Below are positions 1-29,109 of a stretch of 29,109 nt of DNA, piece after piece. Both the position numbers and the translations under genes were made by a program. The first letter of the stretch is position 1. Each line of letters begins with the position of its first letter. The notes under the pieces are model-generated. The model searched no databases. It was not told the origin of the DNA and saw only the letters and a program-made list of their open reading frames with translations. The DNA lies in IMG/VR virus record IMGVR_UViG_3300035181_002213, positions 1 through 29,109 of that record, one strand, 5' to 3'. This DNA comes from a virus.

Positions 1-535
1 CTCTTACCTCTTTGTGAACTCTGATGTAATCTAACATTGCGGACAATTGTTCTTTTGTCTTAGGTCGCTTGCCATTTGCAAATTCTCGAACTCGTGTGCA
101 GAATCGGCAATTCATTCGACATTGATTAGTCGTGATACACAGCACCCTGTCGGGGTACCTATGTACAAGTCCCGCGACAGGCATTTGTTTCTCTTCTCCC
201 AACTCATCTTCGCCTAAATCGTTTATTGATAACTCTTCTGTCGTCGGTACTGATTGAATGCGAATGGGGTCTTTTGGGTTAGTTGGGTCACACAAAGACA
301 AGTAATAAGGAGTGATAGCAATATGCAACAGCGATTCTTGCAGACGCAGTTTTTCTAGCTCTTCGGGTGCAAAGTTCAGCAACTCCGAGAGTTGTTCGAG
401 TGTTCTAATTGAGCGCGCTGTTTGCCACTTTGGGTCGTACCAATCGTGGTCGTCAATATTAGGAAAGTAGTGTTCTCTCCACCCTATGGTCTTAGCAGGT
501 GGAGGCTCCTGTGGTGATGCGGTTTTTGAGTCCAT
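1..535 (-). CDS. kamA: Lysine 2,3-aminomutase-like radical SAM protein (N-terminal 178 residues, cut by window edge)
   Basis: Translating the minus strand from the ATG at 535 gives an open frame to the left edge of the window. It contains the hallmarks of the KamA/EpmB family: an ITPYYLSLCDPTNPKDPIR stretch, a VAGLVHRYPDRVL stretch, and the radical SAM cluster motif C-x3-C-x2-C as CRMNCRFCTR. Known members use S-adenosylmethionine, a 4Fe-4S cluster and PLP to convert L-lysine to beta-lysine, either in lysine breakdown, osmolyte synthesis, or EF-P modification. The PLP lysine would lie in the missing C-terminal part, so activity cannot be judged. A possible ribosome site AAAGGA lies 11 bases before the ATG. 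A TTCGCTATTATT element in the same orientation lies at 672-684. The family call is firm; its purpose in a phage is unknown. Confidence 0.88.
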   Translation of the reverse strand, partial: MDSKTASPQEPPPAKTIGWREHYFPNIDDHDWYDPKWQTARSIRTLEQLSELLNFAPEELEKLRLQESLLHIAITPYYLSLCDPTNPKDPIRIQSVPTTEELSINDLGEDELGEEKQMPVAGLVHRYPDRVLCITTNQCRMNCRFCTRVREFANGKRPKTKEQLSAMLDYIRVHKEVR

Positions 536-649
536 TGTGGTGGTTTTCCTTTCTTAGTTCAACTTATATTCTCGTGTCGATGAAAAAACGCACTAGCAAA
601 ACAGTAATAAGAAACAATGTTATTTTAGCGTGTTATTTTTCGTTGTTTG

Positions 650-1258
650 CTACTGTGCAAACTCCTTCGCCAATAATAGCGAATCGACGAGGATTGGAAA
701 ATCTGCTCTATTTCTAAGCGTGTAAGCAGGATGGACTGTTGGAATCAAATCTACAAAAATGTTGTCTATTTGCAGAAAGTGGTGACTTTTTCTAGCACAA
801 AAGTCTTTGCACCTTTCAACACTGAAGAGTTCACCTGGCATCACAGTCCGCCAAGCCGAGGCTCCAAGAACTACAACGACCTTTGGCTGAATAATCGAGA
901 CGACGGATTCAAAAAAGTGTTTGCAAGCGTCTATCGCTTCTTGTGGAGGCGTAGCATTTCCTGTGGTATAGCATAGAACTGAATTGTGGATGTAGAGTTG
1001 CCTCCTGTCCAACCCCGCTGTCTTGATAGCTTCGTCGAGACGCTTGCCCGACAGCCCAACAAATGGGCGTCGTAGTTTAATTTCGTTGGACCCAGGATTT
1101 TGTCCCAGTAATAGGATTCGGGAATTCACAGAGCCTTCACCAAATACTTTTGGGACTGGGTATTCTGTATTTTTGCATAGAGAACAATTTTCACATAGGT
1201 AGCATTCTCGACGTAGTTGTGCTAGTTGTTCTTTCTTGCTAGTTGTGGTTTCTGTCAA
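650..1258 (-). CDS. Family 4-type uracil-DNA glycosylase (4Fe-4S)
   Basis: The 202-residue product matches family 4 uracil-DNA glycosylases, which remove uracil from DNA. Visible motifs are the N-terminal C-x2-C-x2-C cluster (C22, C25, C28), the first active-site loop as GQNPG (about 52-56; family members usually have GEAPG or similar), PFVGLSGKRLDEA, an NSVLCY stretch with C96, C112, and the second loop TVHPAYTL (about 174-181). C25, C28, C96 and C112 fit the four cluster ligands. The frame is open from GTG 1270, but TTG 1258 sits five bases after a GGAGG site, so I chose TTG. It is transcribed toward the aminomutase gene and away from the polymerase N-half. With dUTPase at 17828 it suggests a phage that keeps uracil out of its DNA. 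Confidence 0.85.
   Translation of the reverse strand: MTETTTSKKEQLAQLRRECYLCENCSLCKNTEYPVPKVFGEGSVNSRILLLGQNPGSNEIKLRRPFVGLSGKRLDEAIKTAGLDRRQLYIHNSVLCYTTGNATPPQEAIDACKHFFESVVSIIQPKVVVVLGASAWRTVMPGELFSVERCKDFCARKSHHFLQIDNIFVDLIPTVHPAYTLRNRADFPILVDSLLLAKEFAQ
672..684 (-). promoter_or_regulatory. TTCGCTATTATT element (candidate extended -10 promoter for kamA)
   Basis: On the minus strand this reads ATTCGCTATTATT followed by GGCGAAGGAG. It lies inside the 3' end of the glycosylase gene, about 140 bases before the aminomutase start at 535, and points toward that gene. It is one of the repeated promoter-like elements of the window. Confidence 0.4.
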
Positions 1259-1270
1259 AAGTTCCTCCAC

Positions 1271-1284
1271 TTTTCGCTATTATA
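1271..1284 (+). promoter_or_regulatory. TTTTCGCTATTATA element (candidate promoter for polymerase N-half)
   Basis: TTTTCGC followed by a -10-like TATTAT (1278-1283) and then TCTGGAG, pointing toward the polymerase gene at 1418. No good -35 box is visible at normal spacing. The same string recurs at 4075 (+), 14415 (+) and 9510 (-), always aimed at the next gene, which supports a phage-specific extended -10 promoter. Confidence 0.5.
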
Positions 1285-1310
1285 TCTGGAGAAGTAAAAA
1301 CTTCCCCACG

Positions 1311-1322
1311 CATAATAGCGAA
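1311..1322 (-). promoter_or_regulatory. TTCGCTATTATG element (candidate promoter for uracil-DNA glycosylase)
   Basis: Minus-strand TTCGCTATTATG sits at the edge of the heptamer array and points toward the glycosylase start at 1258, about 50 bases away. It is followed by GCGTGGGGAAG, matching the purine-rich stretch seen after other copies. It faces the opposite way to the element at 1271-1284, giving a divergent pair. Confidence 0.4.
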
Positions 1323-1376
1323 TAGCGAATAGCGAATAGCGAATAGCGAATAGCGAATAGCGAATAGCGAATAGCG
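1314..1376. repeat. Nine perfect tandem copies of the 7-mer AATAGCG
   Basis: Nine uninterrupted copies of AATAGCG (minus strand: CGCTATT), then AACAGAGG. Read on the minus strand, the array is a chain of TTCGCTATT cores running into TTCGCTATTATG, so the repeat unit is the core of the promoter-like element. It lies in the expected leader of the polymerase N-half mRNA and just upstream of the glycosylase element. Frames through it encode low-complexity LFAIRYS repeats and are not real genes. Confidence 0.97.
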
Positions 1377-1417
1377 AACAGAGGATTGCACAAGATAACA
1401 GATTATGAGGACCTGCC

Positions 1418-3004
1418 ATGAATGAAACACTCTCACCTCGAATACTGACTACGCTCAAGAAAATAGACCCTTCGGTGTTTTGGGAGCGTTTCCCAATTCA
1501 GGAAACCTCCTCTGCGCCTTATGGGGTAGTCATGCTCGCGGGGCATCCAGTTATTCGTTTTCCCAAGAACATCGTTGACATGGACGATTTTCTTATCGCG
1601 TGGGCTGGGTCTAGCTACTTGCTTGATTTGCCCTGTGACGACGAGCTTGACAGCATTATTGAAAAAGCAATGAATGAACCTATGTCGTTCGATATCGAAA
1701 CCACTTCGTTGTCTCCATATCGTCCAGGCGTGAGAGTTATATCGTTTTCGATTTCGTTCAAGGACGCTTCTTATTCCGTTCCCATTGCAGAACCTTTTGT
1801 GGATGCTGATACAGCTAAAAAGTATGAAGAATTTATGCTGACCCTCGTCACTAAAGCGAAATATTTAGTGGCATTCAATGGCAAATTCGACTTCACGTAT
1901 TTAGCCCAGCGATATCCAGACCGAGTTAAGTATGAAGAGATACAGTTCAAGTTTGACCCGATGATAGCCGCGCACGTCTTGAGCGGAGCAGGGTTGCAAG
2001 AGTATAATCTAGGTTTTTTGACAAGACATTATTTACCCGAAACTAGGGCTGATTGGAAGGGCGGTCCTGCTGCTTACTTAGCTGAAAACTACTCACGGAC
2101 TAGTGATAGAACGTTTGACAAAGTACCCATTCATATTCTACTCCCTTATGGCAGGAGAGACGCTTATTACACCTTCCTACTGTTTGAAAACCTCTTGCCC
2201 AAGTTAGAATCAGAAAATCTTACTGAAATCTATCACACTGTCCATCACCGTATTAACTACCTGTGCCATCGTATGAATTATGATGGTCTGTGGCTGAATA
2301 GGTTCTTTATTGACTATCTGGACCAGCTCTATCTCAACTCTCTAGATAGTATGTCGAAAAAAACCGAAGAGCAGTTCAGAAGCATAATGAAGTCACGGGT
2401 CAACATTCTCACTCAGCAGGAAAAACAGTTGACTGAAAAGGACTGTGAAGCTTTGCAATCTTTTGCAGACAACCTCAACATCAATAGCTCACAGCAAATG
2501 GCAGAGGCACTGTATACCGTGTTGGGTCTTCCTGTGTTGGAGAGAACTGCTGAAACCAATATGCCGAAAACAAATGCCTCATTTCTCCTGAAGCTTGCTG
2601 CGTTTGATCCCCCGCTGTTCTCGTCTTTCATTACATATAAAAAGTGGACCAAGTATCATGGCTATTTGAAAAACTACTTGAAACTTGCCTGTCAAGAGGG
2701 GGGACAGCCAGACTCGCAAAGGAGGCTAGTATGTCACTCAGAGTTTAATCCAACGGGTACTAGAACAGGGCGAATGGCATCACAAAATCCCAACGCACAG
2801 AATATTAGTGTGGGTTCTGGTCTTAAGGGCTGTTTTACTACTCCTGATTTAGCGCTATTAACTGATGAGTTGTATCGTGAACTGCAGGATGCGGGAATGC
2901 TTACGCATATTGCATCCTACGACGAAGTCACAATAAGAAAACTAGACGAAGAGGAATATGTCGAAGAGCTAGACGAACTAGAAGGAGGCGTAGAAGATGT
3001 TTAA
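1418..3004 (+). CDS. polA: Family A DNA polymerase, N-terminal half: 3'-5' exonuclease and thumb (split gene)
   Basis: The 528-residue product carries an intact proofreading domain: Exo I FDIETT (D92, E94), Exo II FNGKFDF (N154, D158), Exo III YGRRDAY (Y244, D248). A thumb-like helical region follows. Then comes the family A motif that reads TRTGRMASQNPNAQNIS (about 448-464), and LKGCFTTPD, matching the residues just before motif A in full-length enzymes. The frame then leaves the family and ends in an acidic tail (about 510-528, rich in D and E). Motifs A, B and C are missing here and are found at 15971-17395. The ATG follows GAGGA. No intein signature is seen at the junction. The end overlaps the next gene by 8 bases. 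It should work only together with the C-half. Confidence 0.9.
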   Translation: MNETLSPRILTTLKKIDPSVFWERFPIQETSSAPYGVVMLAGHPVIRFPKNIVDMDDFLIAWAGSSYLLDLPCDDELDSIIEKAMNEPMSFDIETTSLSPYRPGVRVISFSISFKDASYSVPIAEPFVDADTAKKYEEFMLTLVTKAKYLVAFNGKFDFTYLAQRYPDRVKYEEIQFKFDPMIAAHVLSGAGLQEYNLGFLTRHYLPETRADWKGGPAAYLAENYSRTSDRTFDKVPIHILLPYGRRDAYYTFLLFENLLPKLESENLTEIYHTVHHRINYLCHRMNYDGLWLNRFFIDYLDQLYLNSLDSMSKKTEEQFRSIMKSRVNILTQQEKQLTEKDCEALQSFADNLNINSSQQMAEALYTVLGLPVLERTAETNMPKTNASFLLKLAAFDPPLFSSFITYKKWTKYHGYLKNYLKLACQEGGQPDSQRRLVCHSEFNPTGTRTGRMASQNPNAQNISVGSGLKGCFTTPDLALLTDELYRELQDAGMLTHIASYDEVTIRKLDEEEYVEELDELEGGVEDV

Positions 3005-3527
3005 GAAACTTTGGAAAACTCTTTTATACGGGACTAGTAATTCTGTTAATCGCACAAGTTGTCAAGAAGCAACATCAGCACCTCTACCTGGGGTTAATTT
3101 GCCTAGTAAGGAAGTGATGGACCAAGCACTGGAAGAGACGTTGGCACGTATGCAAATTATGAATAACCTTGGTCAAAAACATTTTCTAGTCGTTGACATT
3201 GACTCTGAAAGTGAGAGTACCTCGGCGCTCCGAGATACCTCGCCAGCCACAGGAGACTATTACGTTCTTCTTGTGACAAAAGTTGAGAACGGTTTTATTG
3301 TTTTTGACCTTGTTAAAATTCCTATAAATGCAAACACAGATACAGATACAGATACAGATACAGAAACTACAAACGATACGCTAACCAGTAGTCTAACTCG
3401 AAGTGTTATAGAAGCACAGCGACAAAAAGCAACAAAAGCGCGCATCGAAAAAGATTTGAAGCGGATTAAAGGCAAAAAAAGCAAAGAAAACTCCAATAAA
3501 CGGAAGAGTAAAAATGGAAGAGCGTAA
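2997..3527 (+). CDS. Hypothetical protein with Thr-Asp repeat and basic C-terminus
   Basis: The 176-residue product is not recognised. Its ATG overlaps the end of the polymerase N-half and follows a strong GAAGGAGG site, so it is translationally coupled to it. The middle (about 60-110) looks like a small folded domain (HFLVVDIDSESES, DYYVLLVTKVENGFIVFDLVKI). It is followed by an acidic-polar run of T-D repeats made by a 6-base DNA repeat, and then a strongly basic, probably helical tail (about 140-176) rich in K and R. The basic tail could bind nucleic acid or an acidic partner, but that is only inference. Confidence 0.75.
   Translation: MFKKLWKTLLYGTSNSVNRTSCQEATSAPLPGVNLPSKEVMDQALEETLARMQIMNNLGQKHFLVVDIDSESESTSALRDTSPATGDYYVLLVTKVENGFIVFDLVKIPINANTDTDTDTDTETTNDTLTSSLTRSVIEAQRQKATKARIEKDLKRIKGKKSKENSNKRKSKNGRA
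3336..3365 (+). repeat. ACAGAT hexamer microsatellite (about five units)
   Basis: Four perfect ACAGAT units and a fifth ending in ACAGAA, inside the gene at 2997-3527. It encodes alternating Thr and Asp, so changes in copy number keep the frame. Confidence 0.95.
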
Positions 3528-3759
3528 GTACTGGATAACCGAAGAGCGGGATGGCAAATCTACTGGCTTTTTTGTTTGTGACATTCCTAGTTATGAGGAC
3601 GGTACGAAAGCCAACAAATTTTTGATGACTTACGCTGTTACTCATTTCTTAGAGGTTGCCAAACCAGGAGATAAGCTTACAATCGAACTTGTAGGTTCGG
3701 AGTCTGTAGGGGATAACCAAGGTGATACAGCAAGTTTTTACGAGAAAACTAAGAGATAA
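3514..3759 (+). CDS. Hypothetical small protein
   Basis: The 81-residue product begins at an ATG 14 bases inside the previous gene, after a GGAAGAG site. It has a mixed beta/alpha pattern (KYWITEERDGKSTGFFVCDI, then TYAVTHFLEVAKPGDKLTIELVG) and no known motif. Its 3' end looks rearranged: a 25-base segment coding for GDKLTIEL at 3668-3692 is repeated at 3753-3777, where it is in another frame and supplies the stop codon. Read in the original frame, the second copy would give DKLTIEIVDLGAFND. It sits in the operon led by the polymerase N-half. Confidence 0.7.
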   Translation: MEERKYWITEERDGKSTGFFVCDIPSYEDGTKANKFLMTYAVTHFLEVAKPGDKLTIELVGSESVGDNQGDTASFYEKTKR

Positions 3760-3777
3760 ACTTACAATCGAAATTGT
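3668..3777 (+). repeat. 25-base direct repeat at the 3' end of the 3514 gene
   Basis: GAGATAAGCTTACAATCGAA at 3668 and GAGATAAACTTACAATCGAA at 3753 begin two 25-base copies with two mismatches, 85 bases apart. The second spans the stop codon. This looks like a local duplication that gave the gene a new C-terminus. Confidence 0.85.
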
Positions 3778-3794
3778 CGATTTGGGGGCTTTCA

Positions 3795-4028
3795 ATGATT
3801 GAGCCTGTTCGTCCAACACGAAAAGAACTGCTTGACCATATCAGGAAAGAGTTAGACGAGAGTGTTAAGGATTTGCATTATAGTCTTTTATCGCGGGAAC
3901 AGGAATCGTATCTCACTCGATTAGACAGACTGAATGCGCTGTTGATATTGGTTGGTGATTGTCTTATTTGTCAAGGAGATTGTCCCGACGGAATTCCGCT
4001 CGACCTATTTCCCGACAAGCATATATAG
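3795..4028 (+). CDS. Hypothetical small helical protein
   Basis: The 77-residue product is predicted mostly helical (RPTRKELLDHIRKELDESVK, then SREQESYLTRLDRLNALLIL) and ends with a short Cys pair, CLICQGDC. No family was recognised. The frame opens at TTG 3774, but ATG 3795 follows a GGGGG stretch and is the better start. It ends the operon led by the polymerase N-half; the next gene has its own promoter-like element at 4075. Confidence 0.65.
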   Translation: MIEPVRPTRKELLDHIRKELDESVKDLHYSLLSREQESYLTRLDRLNALLILVGDCLICQGDCPDGIPLDLFPDKHI

Positions 4029-4074
4029 GCATGAACTCTAGGATACTCAAAAATAGAACTCATTGTGATTCGTA

Positions 4075-4089
4075 TTTTCGCTATTATAA
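4075..4089 (+). promoter_or_regulatory. TTTTCGCTATTATAA element (candidate promoter for SSB)
   Basis: TTTTCGC, TATTAT (4082-4087), then AACTGGAA. It lies about 100 bases before the SSB start at 4186 in the same orientation and is nearly identical to the copies at 1271 and 14415. A TTGTGA at 4063 is too close (13 bases) to act as a normal -35 box. Confidence 0.5.
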
Positions 4090-4185
4090 CTGGAACATAT
4101 AATTGCCCCAAAGAGCCGCAGGACCGCGAAGAAGCTCTGAATTGGTCAGAGTAGGTCAGCTCAAATGGGCACAGGAGGTCATACA

Positions 4186-5100
4186 ATGGTTACAAAAACC
4201 CAAGCAAAGGCAGAGAAACCCGAACAGAAGACTGTTTCAGTAACGTCAGGGATGACAAATCTCGACAAGATTAAGCAGCTTAAACAGAAGTTATCACAGG
4301 GTACGAGGGGCAATAATGACGAGAAGTCTGACAGACTTCCATTCTTCAAGTCTGGCGGGAAAGTAGGTACGTCTTTCTGTATTCGTTTTCTTCCGCTGCC
4401 CTTTATGTCCACCCCGATTCTGTACGTCAAAGAACATCACAATCTGTTTCCTGACCAGCCTTACCGAAATGCTGTGTGCCCCAAGAGCACAGGTGACGGT
4501 GAATGTCCTATTTGCGAGTATACGTACACCAAGTGGAAGGAGTTAAAAGAAAAGAACGACGAAGCGGGGATGAAAGCCTTAGTTACTCTTATGGCTAAGG
4601 ATAAAGTTTACGCAGTCATTTATAATCGCTCAACTAACAGAGTTGAGAAGATTAGTATGTCAGCCACGCTTGCCAATCAAATTTTCACTGAATGGGATCC
4701 AGATTCAGGAGAAGACATCACTGATCCCTACAAGGGAAATGATTATACACTGAAGCTCTCTCCGTCCCAAAAAAGCTCAGGCTTCACCTATTCTGCTAGC
4801 AAAGTAACAATGCCAGATGGAAAAGGTGGCAGTCTTCCTTATCCAACCCCAATTATTACTGATGCGAAAGGCAAGCCTGACAAGGAAGCTATTCAAGCCA
4901 TCCTAGACGAGGTGGCTGCCCATGAGCAAGAAATCAGGTGGCTTATCACCCCGCTTCCTTACGACGATTTAGCAAAACTTCTCAAGCACGAAGCGGATAC
5001 TGGTGAAGCTAGTGAAGATACGAGTGATGCAACTAGCGAAGATTTTTCTGCCGCCGAAGACGAGGATGTGGAAGCCGCCCTTGCCGCAGTTAGGAAATAA
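4186..5100 (+). CDS. T4 gp32-like single-stranded DNA-binding protein
   Basis: The 304-residue product resembles T4 gene 32 protein, which coats single-stranded DNA at replication forks and recombination sites. It has a basic, lysine-rich N-terminus, the FLPLPF start of the core, and a zinc-binding set matching gp32 in order and spacing: H85, C98, C107, C110 (H-x12-C-x8-C-x2-C). The C-terminus is acidic (about 275-300), as in gp32, where the tail contacts polymerase and helicase-loading proteins. The frame opens at ATG 4165, but ATG 4186 follows an AGGAGG site. It is a short unit with its own upstream element and a terminator right after it, suggesting strong separate expression. Confidence 0.88.
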   Translation: MVTKTQAKAEKPEQKTVSVTSGMTNLDKIKQLKQKLSQGTRGNNDEKSDRLPFFKSGGKVGTSFCIRFLPLPFMSTPILYVKEHHNLFPDQPYRNAVCPKSTGDGECPICEYTYTKWKELKEKNDEAGMKALVTLMAKDKVYAVIYNRSTNRVEKISMSATLANQIFTEWDPDSGEDITDPYKGNDYTLKLSPSQKSSGFTYSASKVTMPDGKGGSLPYPTPIITDAKGKPDKEAIQAILDEVAAHEQEIRWLITPLPYDDLAKLLKHEADTGEASEDTSDATSEDFSAAEDEDVEAALAAVRK

Positions 5101-5131
5101 ATAACTAGCTAGGAAACGTCGTTCGGATATT

Positions 5132-5168
5132 GGGCGAGGGTTTGGATGACTCTCGCCCACATTTTTTT
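5132..5168 (+). terminator. Rho-independent terminator after SSB
   Basis: Stem GGGCGAG (5132-5138) pairs with CTCGCCC (5152-5158) around a 13-base loop, followed by ACA and seven T (5162-5168). It lies between SSB and the resolvase start at 5187. Confidence 0.85.
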
Positions 5169-5186
5169 ACTAGTCTTGGAGATACG

Positions 5187-5726
5187 ATGACGTATTACTT
5201 AGGATGTGATCCTGGTCTGAACGGCGCAATATGTGTGTTATCCCCCGAATCTGGCATGGCACGATTTTGGGATATTCCCACTGTGACAATTGTAAAATCA
5301 GTAAAAAAGAGGCGTAGAATCGTTGATATTGCAGAGCTTTGGAAAATAATTTGTAGCATTAAGACAACTTATGGAACCGACATTAAAACCGTAACATTGG
5401 AAAATGTTCATGCTATGCCGCATGAAGGAGTTACTTCTGCATTTTCATTTGGTAGAACTTTCGGAATTATCGAGGCTTTGTTAATTGCCGCTAGTCTTGA
5501 ACCGAAAAAAGTTGAAGCCGCTGTGTGGAAACGGAAGTTCGGTCTGCTGATGCCCAAAGAGACAGCAAAAGCAACCAAAAAAGCGACATCGATAGCAAAG
5601 TTTGTTGAGTTATCTGGCTGTCCTTCTGATGTTTTGATTCCAAAAGGGCATAGAGTCCCGTCAGATGGATATGCTGACAGTGCTCTCATTGCCATATACG
5701 GTTTCCTCTCAGAAAAGAATATATAG
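5187..5726 (+). CDS. RuvC-like Holliday junction resolvase
   Basis: The 179-residue product has the RNase H fold signature of RuvC-type resolvases: a first strand YLGCDPGLNGAI with D8, a second acidic position in VTLENVHAMP (E72), and a C-terminal DGYADSALIA with D160 and D164. The HAMPHEGVTSAFSFGRTFG stretch is typical of the phage and bacterial branch. These enzymes cut four-way DNA junctions, and in phages also branched packaging substrates. The frame extends upstream through the terminator, but ATG 5187 follows TTGGAG and is clearly the start. It comes just after the SSB terminator, so it depends on read-through or an unseen promoter. Confidence 0.85.
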   Translation: MTYYLGCDPGLNGAICVLSPESGMARFWDIPTVTIVKSVKKRRRIVDIAELWKIICSIKTTYGTDIKTVTLENVHAMPHEGVTSAFSFGRTFGIIEALLIAASLEPKKVEAAVWKRKFGLLMPKETAKATKKATSIAKFVELSGCPSDVLIPKGHRVPSDGYADSALIAIYGFLSEKNI

Positions 5727-5778
5727 ACAGGTGCTATTAAACGTGGACAAATAAATTACTTTTTTCCAGGAGTATTCG

Positions 5779-7356
5779 ATGCCTAGACCTCGTAAGTTTC
5801 CTAAATTAGAGTTATCGTATTTCGACAGTCTCAACTGGAGCGACACGTATTCAGCGTTAGTTGCTCTAGGTACGCAGTTTATTTTCAAGATTACTTCTCC
5901 AGAGATTTCTACTGCTACTTTGTTTTTTTATCTAGATGTCTATACTCCAATGGAGCAGTCACCAGAGCGAGTCCAAAATACTACTTCGTTGCGATTGTCT
6001 GGTCATGGGCTTATAGTAGCGCAGGACCAAGAAGGACTTGATTATTGGGCGAAACTATTGCGAGCTGCAATCGGTGCAAGAACAAAGCCTACTTATCATG
6101 CCGACCAAGAGTCCGCAGCTAGCGGCAAAAAGGCTCTTGATGTTATGTGGTCGTATGAGAGAACGAGGGAAGAAGAAGAAGCAGGAGATACAGAAAAGAG
6201 CTTTGTTCGAGCAGTGTCAGTTAAATCTCTTCCAGAGTTTCTTAAGCAGTTTAAGGCGGAGGCAATTAAAGAGGTTAAAAATACCAAAATACGGTATTTG
6301 GTAGAGCGTTCGCCAGAAGCAATAGTAATGATGATTCCAATTTCGGATTTAACAAAAGCTTTCAAAAAGTTTGAAAACTGGTTTAAGATAATGTCAACAG
6401 CAAGTAAAGAAACGCATAGGTTTGATTGGGAAAGGGAAACTGAAGATGAAGACGAGGATTTAGAAAACCTGAAAGGGCCTAGTGACGAAGATTTGGCTGC
6501 CATAGAACAAGAGGAAGAGAATGGTAAGACTCCTCGCGGAAAGCAATCTGGCGGGGCAGTAGAAATGTCACACGCAAAATACAGAGGGCGATTGATGAAA
6601 GAAACATTTTGGCCAGGTTTTAGTGGAGGGTGGGTCTGGTTTACTAATATAAATTATAGACCAGAATTTGATAGGGCTATTGATGACGTACTTCATCGGT
6701 TTATACCTCCTTCAGATTACGATATCGATCCCGTAGACATGGTTATTACGTTTTATTCTAAGAAAGCTTTTAACCTTTTCATAGCAAAGGCAGAAGACTT
6801 GGGCATTGAAGGTTACAACGCAGCGACGTATGACGAAGATTTTGATGAATTTGAAATAGAAAATCAAGGTCTAAAGGAATCGTATCCTATCAGTGGCTAT
6901 GACATTAGGGGCGAGGGTATCAAAAACCTGAACGAAGACCCGATGAGTTTTGGCGCGAGTGTTTTCGAGGACGACGGTGAAGGTGCCGGTACCATTACTA
7001 ACCATGACCTCACAGTCTGGTCAAAAAAAGATGCCGAGACGTTATTGTCATATTCTGATGGCGCTAAGTCAGCTATTGAAAATATAGCTAGAGCGATACT
7101 TGGTGGTATAGAAGATGGAGAAAATGAGCCCCAAACAGTAACTCTTGACTGGTTCAAGCTGTCATCACGAGACAGCAACGAGGACGCTAGAGCGTATGTT
7201 AAGCAGGCTATTGAAGAACTAGAACAATATAGGGAGTGGCTTGAAGAGAATCCTGATATTAAAGGTGCTGGCTCAGAAGACGAGATTCAGAACCTTATTG
7301 CCAAACTAAACGCAACCAGGGCAAGAAAGCTTCTAGTGGAAGACCCGCTAAAGTAA
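5779..7356 (+). CDS. Large acidic hypothetical protein
   Basis: The 525-residue product was not recognised. Start ATG 5779 follows CCAGGAG. The N-terminal 110 residues and a segment near 275-350 (FSGGWVWFTNINYRPEFDRA, then MVITFYSKKAFNLFIAKAED) look like folded alpha/beta domains. Between them is a charged stretch rich in E and D (about 215-255). The C-terminus (about 470-525) is helical and charged. There are no visible transmembrane segments, Cys clusters or nucleotide-binding motifs. It follows the resolvase and ends at a shared terminator with the convergent helicase. Position suggests a DNA-metabolism or host-takeover role, but nothing in the sequence proves one. Confidence 0.75.
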   Translation: MPRPRKFPKLELSYFDSLNWSDTYSALVALGTQFIFKITSPEISTATLFFYLDVYTPMEQSPERVQNTTSLRLSGHGLIVAQDQEGLDYWAKLLRAAIGARTKPTYHADQESAASGKKALDVMWSYERTREEEEAGDTEKSFVRAVSVKSLPEFLKQFKAEAIKEVKNTKIRYLVERSPEAIVMMIPISDLTKAFKKFENWFKIMSTASKETHRFDWERETEDEDEDLENLKGPSDEDLAAIEQEEENGKTPRGKQSGGAVEMSHAKYRGRLMKETFWPGFSGGWVWFTNINYRPEFDRAIDDVLHRFIPPSDYDIDPVDMVITFYSKKAFNLFIAKAEDLGIEGYNAATYDEDFDEFEIENQGLKESYPISGYDIRGEGIKNLNEDPMSFGASVFEDDGEGAGTITNHDLTVWSKKDAETLLSYSDGAKSAIENIARAILGGIEDGENEPQTVTLDWFKLSSRDSNEDARAYVKQAIEELEQYREWLEENPDIKGAGSEDEIQNLIAKLNATRARKLLVEDPLK

Positions 7357-7385
7357 CTTTTTTGGCTATAAAATAAGCTCGCGGC

Positions 7386-7416
7386 GAAAAGGCAACTAGT
7401 TTTTGTTGCCTTTTTC
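7386..7416. terminator. Bidirectional terminator between convergent genes
   Basis: GAAAAGGCAAC (7386-7396) pairs with GTTGCCTTTTTC (7405-7416) around an 8-base loop. The arms carry A and T runs, so the hairpin ends transcription from both sides. It overlaps the stop codon of the helicase gene on the minus strand. Confidence 0.88.
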
Positions 7417-8841
7417 TGTTTCTATGGCGGGGACTAAAAACGCCAACAAATCTTTCCAGTGTTTTCGTTCGTAGTTGTAATTTTTATACATCGCCTTTCT
7501 TGCTACGACCTGTTGCATATACCAAGCATCCTGGATATCGATAATTATTGCCACCTTTTTCTCTGGGTGAGTTCTGACGGCTCTTCCAATGGTCTGCGTG
7601 ACTTTGATGATTGATTTGCCTCCATCACCAAAAATCACGACATTCAGTAAAGTTAAATCAACACCTTCAGCACCAACAGTACCACATATCACGATTGGCT
7701 CTTTTTCTTTTTGGTTTTTGTACAACATTGAGTAAGCATTATTTCGGCTATCTATTTCAGAATCTCCAGTAAGAAAATGTATGTTTTCAACTATTTTTTC
7801 AGTATCATTTACAGCTTTCAAGTTGTCAACGTGCTCTGTCCAGGCGACCGCGATATACGTGTTCAGACCTTTTCTTCTGCATAGTTCAGCGACCTTCAAA
7901 ATGAAGCGGTTTCTGTTTTCGTTTTTAATAATCTCGTACCTATGCTGATTTACGGGGTCACGCGATTGCAGAGCGTCAATAACGTGACTAGCATTCTTTT
8001 TGTTATCTCCTTTGTATAGCACCTCGTATACGAGTGGGTACATTACGAACGGCTTCACTCGTTCATCTTTGCTGCCTTCGTATACTAGTCCACCAAAATT
8101 AGCTATAAGTCTTGCATGTTTTACGTCTTGCCAGTCTTCTGCACCAGGTGTAGCTGACAAGCCAGCTCGATACAATGCTGGGCATCTGCCGAGTATGGAA
8201 TACAGCTTCTTTGTGCAATGATGCACTTCGTCAGCAATCAAAGCCTTGACTGTTTTTAAGAACACTCTTACTGGGGGCTTATAAAGTGCTAACGCTTGAT
8301 TGGTCATCACCACTATATCCCCTCGCAAGTCTCTATCATAACCGCCATATTTTGTAATACTATATTTCTTACCTAAGTATTTTGAGAACTCGGTGTAGAC
8401 TTGGTGTAATAAGTCTCTTGAAGGTACAATGACGAGAACTGGTTTTGGAAACTTGTCTGCCAATGCTATTTCAATCAGCGTTTTTCCTGATGCTGTTGGG
8501 CTTTGTATGATTCCAAAACCCTTTTTCAATATGGCATTTGCGGCGTCTAATTGATAGTCTCTCAGTTTTAATTTCTGTCCCTCTTCAGGGGGGATTTCTG
8601 GCAACGGTTGCACGGGATTGTCAAAAACCACATTGTCTATTTTGGTATTGAGATAATCAATGAGCCCTAACTTGAAACCAGTCATGCTGCATAGACGTTC
8701 GAGATGAAAGTTTTTGAATGTTATTACTTCAAAGGTCAACGCCTTGTTTATTTGCTCTTTGAGCAGGGGATCAACTGTAGATGCAGTCCAGCCATTGAGT
8801 GAAACTTTTACATGTCGCGTAGCGCTGTTAGAGTCTGTCAT
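7396..8841 (-). CDS. UvsW-like SF2 DNA helicase
   Basis: The 481-residue product is a superfamily 2 helicase of the UvsW/ERCC3-like type. Motifs in order: RDYQLDAA (Q-like, about 94-101), Walker A SPTASGKT (114-121), IVPSRDL (Ia), DEVHH (204-208), SAT (229-231), GAEGVDL (V), and QTIGRAVR (VI). T4 UvsW unwinds branched DNA and R-loops and moves replication from origin-dependent to recombination-dependent mode. The N-terminal 85 residues precede the helicase core, as in UvsW. Start ATG 8841 follows AGGA and overlaps the end of the preceding gene by 14 bases, indicating coupling. Confidence 0.88.
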   Translation of the reverse strand: MTDSNSATRHVKVSLNGWTASTVDPLLKEQINKALTFEVITFKNFHLERLCSMTGFKLGLIDYLNTKIDNVVFDNPVQPLPEIPPEEGQKLKLRDYQLDAANAILKKGFGIIQSPTASGKTLIEIALADKFPKPVLVIVPSRDLLHQVYTEFSKYLGKKYSITKYGGYDRDLRGDIVVMTNQALALYKPPVRVFLKTVKALIADEVHHCTKKLYSILGRCPALYRAGLSATPGAEDWQDVKHARLIANFGGLVYEGSKDERVKPFVMYPLVYEVLYKGDNKKNASHVIDALQSRDPVNQHRYEIIKNENRNRFILKVAELCRRKGLNTYIAVAWTEHVDNLKAVNDTEKIVENIHFLTGDSEIDSRNNAYSMLYKNQKEKEPIVICGTVGAEGVDLTLLNVVIFGDGGKSIIKVTQTIGRAVRTHPEKKVAIIIDIQDAWYMQQVVARKAMYKNYNYERKHWKDLLAFLVPAIETEKGNKN

Positions 8842-9478
8842 CTGCTGTCCTGTTGTTCTGTGACCATTCTAAATACGTTGAGAAGAGTTTGAATCCTTCT
8901 GGTGTACGAGGCAATACACCGCGTTTCATCAAAATTTTGATTTTCTTTCGCCGGTCTTCCACCTGCTCATTTAGTGCTTCTATTATTGCGTCATACTCAG
9001 GTAAATGCTCGATTGTTTCCGAATCAATAAGAAACAGAAAAGCTTCTAATGGCAATACCGAAGTAAACAAATCTCTTAGAATTTCTTCTTTAGTGTACTT
9101 ATTTCCAGCGTATTTAAGCACAGATGGACGAAGACTATCAAATACTGTTGGCGGCGAGGATGTATAAGTACCCTCACCGTATCTTCTTACGTAAACGGGG
9201 CTGAGAATAAGATTCAGCACGTGGTTCTTGTATGGTCTTGAAGACATAAAAGTAAACCCAGTCTTTTTGATGTTGTTTGTGAATCCGTCAAAGCAGACCT
9301 GTATGTATCTAAGTGGGTTAATTTGACCTTCGTTACAGAAAGTCATAATATTCCTTGCTGCTGTTACATTGCCTTTAGTGAAGAAACACTCTTTTCCGAA
9401 ACGAAGAATATACAATTCGGAGAAATACAGCAACAACGGACGCACATCGCTATTCTCAGTACGCCACTCAATAAACAT
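8828..9478 (-). CDS. Hypothetical protein coupled to UvsW-like helicase
   Basis: The 216-residue product is not recognised. The frame opens further upstream, but ATG 9478 follows GGAGGG with 9-base spacing and lies just after a TTTTCGCTATTATAA element, so it is the start. It is basic and mixed alpha/beta in its first half (NVTAARNIMTF, YVRRYGEGTY) and helical at the C-terminus (DAIIEALNEQVEDRRKKIKI). It runs into the helicase gene with a 14-base overlap, so a shared recombination or replication role is plausible but unproven. Confidence 0.72.
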   Translation of the reverse strand: MFIEWRTENSDVRPLLLYFSELYILRFGKECFFTKGNVTAARNIMTFCNEGQINPLRYIQVCFDGFTNNIKKTGFTFMSSRPYKNHVLNLILSPVYVRRYGEGTYTSSPPTVFDSLRPSVLKYAGNKYTKEEILRDLFTSVLPLEAFLFLIDSETIEHLPEYDAIIEALNEQVEDRRKKIKILMKRGVLPRTPEGFKLFSTYLEWSQNNRTADDRL

Positions 9479-14919: not shown

Positions 14920-16074
14920 ATGTCAACGATGACAGAAGCAAAACGCAATGCAATAAGTTCATTTAGCTATTCTCGGATTACCACCTTCTTCGCTTGTGCA
15001 AGACATTTCGCCATAGCCTACATCCACAAAATTCCGATGGGCAAAACCAAAGCCATGGAAATGGGCACACAATTACACGAATTTTACGACAAGCTCAACA
15101 AGATAGACATAGCAAACGATGGGACAGCAGTAGCTCTTTCTCAACATCCAGAAGGCAAAGCAATCGTCACGGCTTTTAAGAAGCAATACCCTGCAGAGTA
15201 TATGAAGTTTCATAATGTTTGGCGTCCCTACCGTAGAGCGTTGCCGAGAGGACCCTTAGAATATTCAGAGCATCAAGATAGGATGTTAATAGATATACCA
15301 AATTCTCCTGTGTCTAATACAACGTTAATGGGTATTATGGATTACACTAATCTCAACGCACGAGGAAAAGCTATCATTGTAGATTTCAAGAGTGGTTCAA
15401 GTCAAGACAGTCCGAGTTATCGAGATCAAGCTGCGCTTTATGCTCTCATCACGCTGTATGTTTACCCACAAGTGCAAGAAGTGAAGACCGTTATTTTTGA
15501 CATATCCTCCACTCAACGAGGAGCTTTAGACACTGGTACGTTTTACTTTCTTCGGGAGCGGGATTATGAACCTCTGCGGCTTGCCACACAGAAAATGATA
15601 GGAACGATAGTTGAAGCGGTAGTCAACGACAAGTTTCCCGCCACCCCGTGCAATAAATGCAGCTATTGTCCAGATACTACTTGCAAGTTCAATAAGAACT
15701 GGAAGATAAAGGGGCAGCCTTTAGCAGAAGTATCAGCACTCCCCCCGCAGGAAGAAAACTCTAATAGTCCTACAGTGGAAACGAAACAGGAATCTTCTCT
15801 GTTCATGCCTTCAAAAAACGCTATTATAGGTGGCGGAGAACCAGAACCGGAATCAGTCTCTATGTCTTCTGTGTTTGGCTCATTTGAGTTAGGAGAGAAG
15901 GAAAAAGCAGCCCTAATCGCCATACGAGAACATCTTGCTAGTATGCCAAGTAAATTGGAGAAAAAGGAAAATGCCGAATCCGAGTCCAGTAAAGACACAC
16001 AAACCCAAAGCAAAGCAACTATCAAAACAATCAAAATTCCAATCGCCAAAACTGAAGGTAGAAGTAAAAAATGA
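14920..16074 (+). CDS. Cas4/RecB-like PD-(D/E)XK nuclease with Fe-S cluster
   Basis: The 384-residue product has the RecB/Cas4 nuclease core: SFSYSRITTFFACARHF with C26, GTQLHEF with H53, MGIMDYTN with D141, VDFKSG with D155 and K157, and YRDQAALYAL with Q170 and Y174. Cysteines C244, C247, C250 and C255 with C26 can form the 4Fe-4S cluster of AddB/Cas4-type enzymes. Such proteins degrade or resect DNA ends. ATG 14920 follows AAAGAGGA. The last 100 residues are polar low-complexity and the final 104 bases overlap the polymerase C-half in another frame. No cas1, cas2 or CRISPR array is near, so a phage recombination role is more likely. Confidence 0.85.
   Translation: MSTMTEAKRNAISSFSYSRITTFFACARHFAIAYIHKIPMGKTKAMEMGTQLHEFYDKLNKIDIANDGTAVALSQHPEGKAIVTAFKKQYPAEYMKFHNVWRPYRRALPRGPLEYSEHQDRMLIDIPNSPVSNTTLMGIMDYTNLNARGKAIIVDFKSGSSQDSPSYRDQAALYALITLYVYPQVQEVKTVIFDISSTQRGALDTGTFYFLRERDYEPLRLATQKMIGTIVEAVVNDKFPATPCNKCSYCPDTTCKFNKNWKIKGQPLAEVSALPPQEENSNSPTVETKQESSLFMPSKNAIIGGGEPEPESVSMSSVFGSFELGEKEKAALIAIREHLASMPSKLEKKENAESESSKDTQTQSKATIKTIKIPIAKTEGRSKK
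15816..15830 (+). promoter_or_regulatory. AAAACGCTATTATAGG element inside the nuclease gene
   Basis: AAACGCTATTATA then GGTGGCGGAG, about 140 bases before the polymerase C-half. It matches the recurring element except at the T-rich start. It could be an internal promoter for the C-half, but it lies in coding sequence and may be chance. Confidence 0.25.
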
Positions 16075-17395
16075 TGACTGTGTATTGACTAGGGAACAGG
16101 CATTTACTCTTCTGCTGCCTGTCGAGTCCGCGCAGTGTGCTTTTTTTCTTAATAGATACAGAACTGACAAGGCATTTGCGGAAAAATGGAACGCTAAAAT
16201 AGATGAGTACCGAAAAGATCCATTTGTGCTTGTAAGTGCTGACGCCTCTCAGGCGGAGGTACGTATTGCTTCGTCACTGTCCAATGAACGACATCTCATA
16301 GACAATCTGTATCGCAAACAGCTTGAGGCAGATTTACAGGGTCTGGATACTGACAAAGTGCCAGAGCTGGATTTACACATCAGAACAGCTGCCGCTATCG
16401 CTGGCATTCCATTTGACCAAGTTACCAAAGACCAAAGACGAGGCGCTAAACGTATTACTTTTGGAACGATGTACGGCGCTACTGAATTTCGTATTGCCGT
16501 AGAATCAAATATTTCAGTTGGCGAAGCCAAAAAGCTTCTCGACAAATTTTGGGCTGCTTATCCTGATTTGTGGAAATGGACAATAAAACTTGTAGCAGAA
16601 GGAGTAACTTATGGCTATGTAGAAACGCCAAATGGCCGTCGTAAAGCTTGTCCTACATTAAAAGGTAAAAAAGAATTTCTTGCGTGTTTTATTCATGGTA
16701 AAAGTCCTTGGCTGGCACTTAAAAATCAGTATAGCTACGGTGTTATAAAGCAGGTTATGCGAGAGATACGACAGATACGCAATTTTCCTGTACAGTCATT
16801 CACTTCTGATTATATTACAAATGGCGCGTATCTATTGACTGAAGAATGTAAGAAGCGTGGTATAGAAATGGTGTTTCATACTATCGTACATGATGCCCTT
16901 GTTGCGTCGGTACGATATTCGAGGCTCAAAGAATATCTAGTACTTATGAAGCGCATTATGGAGAAAGATGTAGTAGAACAGATGGGTATTATCTGTCCAA
17001 TGAAAATGGATCAGGAAGTGGGGTTTGGGTATCACTCCTTAATGAAGGTAAAATACCTACTTGACAACGAAGATTGGAATACACTACCGGCAAGAATGGT
17101 AGACCATGCGCGCAAAGTAAAAGCGGCAACGATTATCGGCCAGGTGGGCGAGAATTCGTTGTTCCTTTTCAAACCAGAGAACCAAAAACCGTATCTCCTT
17201 ACCTCGAAAGAAGTCAAGGAAACTGGAATCAGCAACGATTCTTTTCGTCAAATGTTTATTTCATACAGAAAACGATGGAACTTGTCACCAGAAGCATTAC
17301 AGGCTGCGTATGAGGAATTAATGCCGCTTGTCGAGACGGTGTATGAACGTCCCGATTTTGCGGAAGCTGTGAAAATGGGAGACGACCACAAATGA
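15971..17395 (+). CDS. polA: Family A DNA polymerase, C-terminal half: motifs A, B and C (split gene)
   Basis: The 474-residue product begins where the N-half (1418-3004) ends. It holds motif A LVSADASQAEVRI (D91, R98), motif B RRGAKRITFGTMYG (R156, K160, Y168, G169), NFPVQSF and TSDYI, and motif C TIVHDALVAS (H307, D308). The residue after D308 is Ala, where most family A enzymes have Glu (HDE). ATG 15971 follows GGAGAAAAAGG and overlaps the nuclease by 104 bases; that overlap gives a strongly basic N-terminal tail (about 8-33, rich in K). About 110 residues after the normal end of the palm are an extension I cannot place. It must assemble with the N-half to have exonuclease and thumb. Confidence 0.9.
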   Translation: MPNPSPVKTHKPKAKQLSKQSKFQSPKLKVEVKNDDCVLTREQAFTLLLPVESAQCAFFLNRYRTDKAFAEKWNAKIDEYRKDPFVLVSADASQAEVRIASSLSNERHLIDNLYRKQLEADLQGLDTDKVPELDLHIRTAAAIAGIPFDQVTKDQRRGAKRITFGTMYGATEFRIAVESNISVGEAKKLLDKFWAAYPDLWKWTIKLVAEGVTYGYVETPNGRRKACPTLKGKKEFLACFIHGKSPWLALKNQYSYGVIKQVMREIRQIRNFPVQSFTSDYITNGAYLLTEECKKRGIEMVFHTIVHDALVASVRYSRLKEYLVLMKRIMEKDVVEQMGIICPMKMDQEVGFGYHSLMKVKYLLDNEDWNTLPARMVDHARKVKAATIIGQVGENSLFLFKPENQKPYLLTSKEVKETGISNDSFRQMFISYRKRWNLSPEALQAAYEELMPLVETVYERPDFAEAVKMGDDHK

Positions 17396-26742: not shown

Positions 26743-27048
26743 ATGAGTCTACATAGTATAGCAATTCGGAGGATGGCACAGGCTACGTATGAGGAGTCTG
26801 GTAAGCCTGAGATAGAAAATATCGTTAAGTCCACCACTAAAGCCATAACCGCGATATATCATCAATACGGTGTTGACGCGGCTAAAGAGTGGGCTGAGGC
26901 TTTTCAGGGAGTGTTTGACGCAGAAGCTGATTTAATCAAAGACGTGCTACTTGAGGTAGTAGACACACTTGAGGAACAGTCCTCATCACAGGAAGGCACC
27001 GAGCCAGAAGAAGTCATAGGTTCTGTGGGGCAGAGCGCTAAGCCCTAA
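26743..27048 (+). CDS. Hypothetical helical protein
   Basis: The 101-residue product starts at ATG 26743 after AGAGGAG. It is mostly helical (IENIVKSTTKAITAIYHQYG, DAAKEWAEAFQGVFDAE) with an acidic, low-complexity tail (EEQSSSQEGTEPEEVIG). The stop overlaps the convergent gene by 11 bases, and the terminator for this unit lies beyond it. Function unknown. Confidence 0.65.
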   Translation: MSLHSIAIRRMAQATYEESGKPEIENIVKSTTKAITAIYHQYGVDAAKEWAEAFQGVFDAEADLIKDVLLEVVDTLEEQSSSQEGTEPEEVIGSVGQSAKP

Positions 27049-27568
27049 TCATCAATAATTTTTTGCCTGTCGCTAAAGAGTTTCGGGATACTAATGAACC
27101 TAAATCACGACCTCCCACAACTAAATGTGGGAGGTTTTTTCGTGTCTCTTCATCAGTCAACTTAAAACCATAGTCATAGTAACCTTGTATAACATGCGGC
27201 GACACACTAGCGACATCGACCTCAAGCACCAGCTTGGTAAGTCCCTTTTTAGCGCTCAAATCGTCAAACAATTTTAATAGTTTTGGTAGAGAGCCTTTTG
27301 GTGTGTGCGGAATTTTTGCTACAGATATGAGATATGAGTATCCTTCTATCCACGTGCCGAAAGCAGCAATGATAATTGCAAAAGGCAGATTTTCTGTCTC
27401 TTCGCTAGATACCATAATAATTTCGGCATCGTTGTCTAGGTAGTTATGCACTAGACCCTTTGCGATGTCTGTTATTGCAGAGTCAATGCCCCATGCGATT
27501 TTATAGACCTTTGCCGCGTCAATGACTTCGCCAGGTGTTCTTACTATTGTCCAGTGAAAGTCACTCAT
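27038..27568 (-). CDS. GNAT-like acetyltransferase (tentative)
   Basis: The 176-residue product has the general pattern of a GNAT domain: EIIMVSSEETENLPFAIIIA, GYSYLISVAKIPHTPKGSLP near the acetyl-CoA loop, LTKLVLEVDVAS, and IQGYYDYGFKLTDE near the C-terminal strand. The usual R/Q-x-x-G-x-G/A loop is only loosely matched (HTPKGSLPKL). Its start ATG 27568 overlaps the previous stop as CCATGA. The hairpin at 27110-27140 lies in its C-terminal part and is read as NLPHLVVGGRD. The family call is uncertain and the substrate cannot be guessed. Confidence 0.42.
   Translation of the reverse strand: MSDFHWTIVRTPGEVIDAAKVYKIAWGIDSAITDIAKGLVHNYLDNDAEIIMVSSEETENLPFAIIIAAFGTWIEGYSYLISVAKIPHTPKGSLPKLLKLFDDLSAKKGLTKLVLEVDVASVSPHVIQGYYDYGFKLTDEETRKNLPHLVVGGRDLGSLVSRNSLATGKKLLMIRA
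27110..27140 (+). terminator. Rho-independent terminator for the 25887-27048 unit, inside a convergent gene
   Basis: CCTCCCACA (27111-27119) pairs with TGTGGGAGG (27126-27134), extended by A27110-T27135, with a six-base loop and six T (27135-27140) on the plus strand. It lies wholly in the coding sequence of the minus-strand gene 27038-27568. On the minus strand no T-run follows, so it should act only on plus transcripts. Confidence 0.92.
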
Positions 27569-28710: not shown

Positions 28711-29109
28711 TCAGCTATAGAAATTCTGTGTGTCTACAGGCTCCGCAGGGTGCAATAATGTTGCCCTAATTGCGTCTGTTTTGTCAGGGGATTTAGCATA
28801 AATTTTTTGAACCTTTCTAAGTGCGTTCTTCAAATCAACAGCACCACATCCAATAAATTCAGCCATTATTTCTATTGCTTTTTCTGGAGTAAGGTTTGAA
28901 TAGTTTCCGATTTTTGGAGCGGCGACAGCAGGGGTGTTACCTTGGTCAATCGCCTTTCCCCACTCTGGTAGTTCAACTGTGTCATACTCAGGTTTCGTCT
29001 GTGTGTCCTCTATAGAATCAAAATAGTCAAGCGCCTCCGCAGGAAATGCACTGATATGCCACTCTGCGTTTGCATCAACCACTAACAACACTAGTTTGAT
29101 GCTTTTGCG
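28711..29109 (-). CDS. Hypothetical protein, cut by the right window edge
   Basis: An open frame runs from the right edge to the stop at 28711, at least 132 residues. A GTG at 29091 is possible but has no ribosome site, and the frame stays open to 29109, so the true start is probably outside. The visible part has an acidic middle (DYFDSIEDTQTKPEYDTVEL) and a helical end (EKAIEIMAEFIG, VDLKNALRKVQKIYA). No family was recognised. It precedes the sigma-like gene on the minus strand. Confidence 0.6.
   Translation of the reverse strand, partial: RKSIKLVLLVVDANAEWHISAFPAEALDYFDSIEDTQTKPEYDTVELPEWGKAIDQGNTPAVAAPKIGNYSNLTPEKAIEIMAEFIGCGAVDLKNALRKVQKIYAKSPDKTDAIRATLLHPAEPVDTQNFYS

Follow-up and report, generated by a model that had tools for sequence, protein, structure and literature searches.

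Lysine 2,3-aminomutases of bacteria and phages

The described enzyme closest to the one analyzed here is the lysine 2,3-aminomutase (KamA/AblA) of Clostridium subterminale SB4, represented by PDB entry 2A5H. The product of KamA is (S)-beta-lysine, whereas EpmB (YjeK), a member of the same superfamily, yields (R)-beta-lysine. An earlier note had recognized a lysine 2,3-aminomutase-like radical SAM gene next to a uracil-DNA glycosylase (UDG) gene at the start of a 29,109-base virus contig, which belongs to an uncultured large bacterial virus and is referred to below, at its full length, as the window. Our analysis bears out this identification through family models, catalytic residues, fold and the phage genes on the flanks. 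The window protein shares with 2A5H the fold, the CxxxCxxC motif, the PLP lysine, both lysine-binding aspartates, Arg134 and Gln258; it differs in the absence of the tail beyond residue 360, which in 2A5H bears the zinc site and contributes to dimerization, in the replacement of C268 by Thr, and in a short deletion after D293. Furthermore, it is phage-borne and is not accompanied by ablB.

Several phages encode proteins of the same family. In the Vibrio phages GR7B and GR11A, the gene is annotated as lysine 2,3-aminomutase, and in Pseudomonas putida phages of the vB_PpuM- series, as a hypothetical protein; all these carriers are in culture, are of the lytic type and have genomes of about 200 kb. 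Their KamA proteins have the catalytic residues and the short C-terminus of the window protein but are only 32-40% identical to it, belong to a separate branch, and have linked genes of the QueC-like, DUF5591 and GNAT-like types, none of which is found near the window copy. The most similar KamA proteins, 49-52% identical, come from the phage contigs L010/L011 (332 kb) and L012/L013/L016; they fall in the same clade and also have a short tail, but their genes follow virion-type genes and a GIY-YIG endonuclease gene, whereas the window copy lies beside the UDG gene. The closest cellular relatives, with 48-51% identity, are encoded by Dehalococcoidia and differ from the window protein in having a tail of 35-45 residues and in their operon context (see below). 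Phage KamA is not new as such, given that public records hold it, twice under the name of lysine 2,3-aminomutase; in the literature collection searched, no relevant paper on KamA in phages was retrieved.

The kamA-type gene and its product

The 5' part of the gene occupies positions 1-535 of the window (minus strand), with the ATG at 533-535 and a frame that stays open to base 1 (178 codons), where it is cut by the window edge. The sequence AAAGGA at 547-552 (minus strand), 11 bases ahead of the ATG, is a candidate ribosome-binding site by consensus. The upstream neighbor on the same strand is the UDG superfamily gene (650-1270, minus strand; PF03167, 2e-28), to which kamA is linked by position only; we claim no functional tie between the two. 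The remainder of kamA was recovered from the IMG/VR contig L002, which matches positions 1-8950 of the window in reverse orientation at 99.97% (3 mismatches in 8950 bases, none inside kamA) and reaches 5.7 kb past window base 1. The complete gene (L002:8416-9552, plus strand) encodes 378 amino acids and has a GC content of 0.44, the same as its phage neighbors.

Already the fragment matched all six NCBIfam models of the KamA family, with the best match to TIGR03820 (lysine 2,3-aminomutase; 2.8e-39). For the completed protein, TIGR03820 was again the best of all models (401.8 bits, 2.9e-120). This score misses the equivalog cut-off curated for the model (525.4 bits), as do those of the nearest phage (462-464 bits) and Dehalococcoidia (474 bits) relatives; the absence of the C-terminal tail lowers the score of the window protein. 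The match to the model of the KamA family of radical SAM proteins, TIGR00238 (310.4 bits), lies above its curated cut-off of 199.2. In a phmmer search against PDB, 2A5H was the only sequence relative, and its E-value of 5e-103 shows that the assignment to KamA is not due to chance.

Alignment with 2A5H showed that R112, R116, C125, C129, C132, R134, H230, Q258, D293, D330 and K337 are all kept. In the numbering of the window protein, the cluster consists of C139, C143 and C146, the C-x3-C-x2-C motif that had been spotted in the fragment (window 98-121, minus strand; invariant in 34 aligned relatives); R148, the counterpart of R134 in the alignment to 2A5H, is encoded at window 92-94 (minus strand); the PLP lysine is K347, and the lysine-binding residues are D307 (D293 in 2A5H) and D340 (D330). 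The roles of these residues in cluster binding, contacts with the carboxylate and the epsilon-amine, and the PLP aldimine are those that we take them to have in 2A5H. Thus, the loss of catalytic residues, named in the earlier note as evidence that would count against its reading, was not observed at any position checked.

The AlphaFold2 model of the completed protein, built with 34 relatives, has a pLDDT of 88 and a pTM of 0.88, and superimposes on 2A5H with Z 45.2, an rmsd of 1.8 A for 335 aligned residues and 48% identity. In a structure search with this model, the second-best entry after 2A5H reached only Z 17, and the matches listed for a viral structure library included distant radical SAM folds only, with no close KamA. 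The C-terminal tail is absent (after position 360, there are 8 residues, none of them Cys), compared to 35-110 residues in most cellular copies. A short C-terminus is common to almost all phage KamA copies, and the zinc-binding tail cysteines are not a strict criterion for KamA because many cellular members of the family also lack them. Together, the sequence comparisons and the structural model indicate that the protein is very probably an active KamA/AblA-type L-lysine 2,3-aminomutase that depends on PLP and on SAM with a [4Fe-4S] cluster.

Distribution of KamA among phages

A profile scan identified relatives of KamA at at least 54 loci in viral contigs of up to 429 kb, comprising about 40 non-identical sequences; two peptide patterns were scanned, so that these counts are lower bounds. 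The carriers include 11 cultured phages, nine of P. putida and two of Vibrio, along with large uncultured phage genomes. Hence, the view that such a gene is unexpected in a phage was overstated.

In a tree of 44 sequences, the window copy groups with those of L011 and L013 (94/86), and this trio joins the Dehalococcoidia KamA (100/99 support). Most of the other phage KamA proteins form another branch, the neighbors of which are copies from Planctomycetota and Desulfobacterales. A single clade of phage KamA was rejected (p-AU 2e-6); therefore, KamA was acquired by phages more than once (at least twice). That large phages unrelated to each other took up this gene independently suggests that they benefit from beta-lysine, and the existence of cultured carriers (GR7B and GR11A of Vibrio; Aura, Voja-6 and others of P. 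putida) makes the use of beta-lysine by phages directly testable. For the window phage, kamA is a well-founded yet unremarkable auxiliary metabolic gene, and this copy gives no direct hint of its function.

Possible uses of beta-lysine

As a whole, the observations are best explained by a stand-alone phage lysine 2,3-aminomutase that supplies beta-lysine to a host enzyme or to an unseen enzyme of the phage, a reading to which we assign a probability of roughly 0.7. Under this scenario, a large tailed phage would carry kamA as a stand-alone metabolic gene and convert L-lysine to beta-lysine during infection. SAM would be cleaved at the CxxxCxxC cluster to give the 5'-deoxyadenosyl radical; K347 would form the aldimine with lysine, while D307 and D340 would bind the epsilon-amine of the substrate; and the alpha-amino group would move to C3, yielding beta-lysine by the radical 1,2-amino migration expected from the family.

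Most phage KamA copies stand alone, without a common neighbor, yet a few contexts hint at a partner. In three Dehalococcoidia loci, KamA is followed by two D-Ala-D-Ala-ligase-like ATP-grasp genes and then by a GNAT gene (L062:4875-8688, L066:4911-8713 and L135:4914-8683; AblB is absent), an arrangement suggestive of a route leading to a beta-lysyl peptide or conjugate. In the phage contig L018, KamA lies directly behind an ATP-grasp gene of the Dala_Dala_lig family. Because KamA is paired with ATP-grasp proteins in both settings, we favor, tentatively, conjugation of the beta-lysine by an ATP-grasp-type ligase of the host or an unseen one of the phage as its next step. PF07478 was not detected in L002 and no ATP-grasp family was found among the window proteins, in a genome of which a large part is possibly missing.

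A broader alternative, which we consider unlikely, is that phages repeatedly took up KamA for an undescribed, virus-specific use of beta-lysine, with the window phage among these lineages. Examples would be beta-lysyl conjugation involving ATP-grasp and GNAT proteins or, in the lineage with QueC and DUF5591, a 7-deazaguanine base bearing lysine or beta-lysine. To our knowledge, no phage process that uses beta-lysine has been described.

Also unlikely is a contribution to osmolyte synthesis, in which a host AblB acetyltransferase would turn the beta-lysine into N-epsilon-acetyl-beta-lysine and thereby improve the salt-stress tolerance of the infected cell. KamA/AblA catalyzes the first step of the known acetyl-beta-lysine pathway, and AblB may be supplied by the host. 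Against it, the AblB model (TIGR03827) matched none of the 45 other KamA-carrying viral records (that of the window phage itself being incomplete), none of the window proteins, and nothing in the eight genomes of Dehalococcoidia/Chloroflexi in which the closest cellular KamA genes occur. In the searches of 45-46 KamA-carrying viral records for AblB and, as described below, for EpmA/GenX and EF-P, the positive controls were matched.

Hypermodification of phage DNA by placement of beta-lysine on 7-deazaguanine or another base appears improbable for the window phage; the earlier note had named DNA modification in general as a possible role. The idea is possible for a different phage lineage: in GR7B, GR11A and the contig L046, two QueC-like genes and a DUF5591 gene lie a few genes from KamA, and in the P. 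putida phage Voja-6, QueC-like genes are found near it. DUF5591 is the domain of archaeosine synthase ArcS, an enzyme that joins lysine to preQ0. However, this lineage is a separate KamA branch (99 support), and neither QueC nor DUF5591 was found in L002 or among the proteins of the window, itself a fragment; together, the two contigs give the 35 kb of phage sequence that could be inspected.

Apart from the window phage, a conserved cluster was observed in four phage contigs (L004:2983-11538, L005:2924-11441, L046:2599-10104 and L003:638-10957). It contains pairs of QueC-like genes, DUF5591 (not in L003), Fem/GNAT-like proteins, KamA, a GNAT gene, and a large protein whose match to ATP-grasp is very weak, and is a candidate system for modification with a lysine- or beta-lysine-bearing 7-deazaguanine. 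In a virion-gene region of yet another contig, a shortened KamA-like gene (278 aa) is directly followed by two QueC-like genes, the three together spanning L058:7980-10193; the D330 position of the KamA-like protein is empty in the alignment.

It is similarly improbable that the enzyme acts, instead of on lysine, on a different amino acid, like the glutamate and arginine 2,3-aminomutases, or on a modified nucleoside, like the phage M6 radical SAM isomerase. Immediately behind the D293 equivalent, in a loop on the substrate side, the window protein has lost four residues, a deletion that is absent from the other sequences (26 inspected) and suggests that an altered substrate is possible; the TIGR03820 score beneath the AblA cut-off points the same way. 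Nevertheless, both lysine-binding aspartates and the equivalent of K337 are kept, whereas in glutamate 2,3-aminomutase the two aspartate sites are occupied by Lys and Asn. The glutamate 2,3-aminomutase model TIGR04368 scored 366 bits, under its cut-off of 650, and the arginine 2,3-aminomutase model 324 bits. Among reference sequences sought for the residue comparison with glutamate 2,3-aminomutase, none scored above the model cut-off, and no family of a thymidine hypermodification pathway based on an M6-type isomerase was detected among the window proteins.

Modification of the host translation factor EF-P, which the earlier note had put forward, gained no support and ranks last in likelihood among the known uses of beta-lysine. 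An EpmB-like enzyme would provide beta-lysine for EF-P, allowing the phage to tune polyproline translation. EpmB belongs to the same superfamily and, like the window protein, ends soon after the PLP lysine, but the EpmB model TIGR03821 scored 199 bits, below its cut-off of 369.3 and far below the 402 bits of the AblA model; EpmB has E in place of D at position 330; and Salmonella EpmB, encoded next to efp, is only about 32% identical to the window protein. Neither EpmA/GenX (TIGR00462) nor the EF-P N-domain (PF08207) was found in any of the 46 KamA-carrying viral records (L002 and 45 others, possibly fragments), and no EF-P or EpmA was seen among the window proteins. We therefore regard this role as highly improbable.

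Phage setting of the gene

The window encodes pieces of a family A DNA polymerase, a DnaB-like helicase, a primase, a gp32-like single-strand binding protein, a RuvC-like resolvase, a dUTPase and a PD-(D/E)XK nuclease, and on the far side of kamA, L002 continues into a gene for an SbcC-like phage nuclease subunit (3e-50). Thus, with phage genes on both sides, kamA is not a piece of host sequence bordering a prophage. Although the contig end cuts the gene, the chance that bases 1-650 are host DNA next to a prophage, as the earlier note had considered, or the product of a chimeric assembly is negligible, given the identical junction in the separately named L002, the GC content that fits the neighbors, and the location of the nearest KamA relatives in phage contigs (profile scan).

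An exact-pattern search for phage sequence beyond L002 or beyond window base 29,109 yielded nothing new, and no tRNA genes that could serve as a clue to the host were found within the window. In L002, a gene for an RCC1-repeat protein adjoins kamA (L002:10319-11332, plus strand; GC 0.50 against 0.43-0.46 around it). Within the window, perfect tandem copies of the 7-base unit GAATAGC lie between the UDG and polymerase genes (approximately 1309-1379), two GroES-like (Cpn10) genes match PF00166 (17392-17835 and 25887-26261), and an ORF on the minus strand (27041-27568) resembles a GNAT acetyltransferase by eye, with no match in Pfam or NCBIfam and no confirmed relatives. The family A DNA polymerase is encoded in two genes about 13 kb apart, both on the plus strand. 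The first half (1418-3004) stops before catalytic motif A and has an acidic tail (LDEEEYVEELDELEGGVEDV), and the second (15935-17395) opens with a basic segment and contains motifs A-C; association of the two halves might be aided by these opposite charges.
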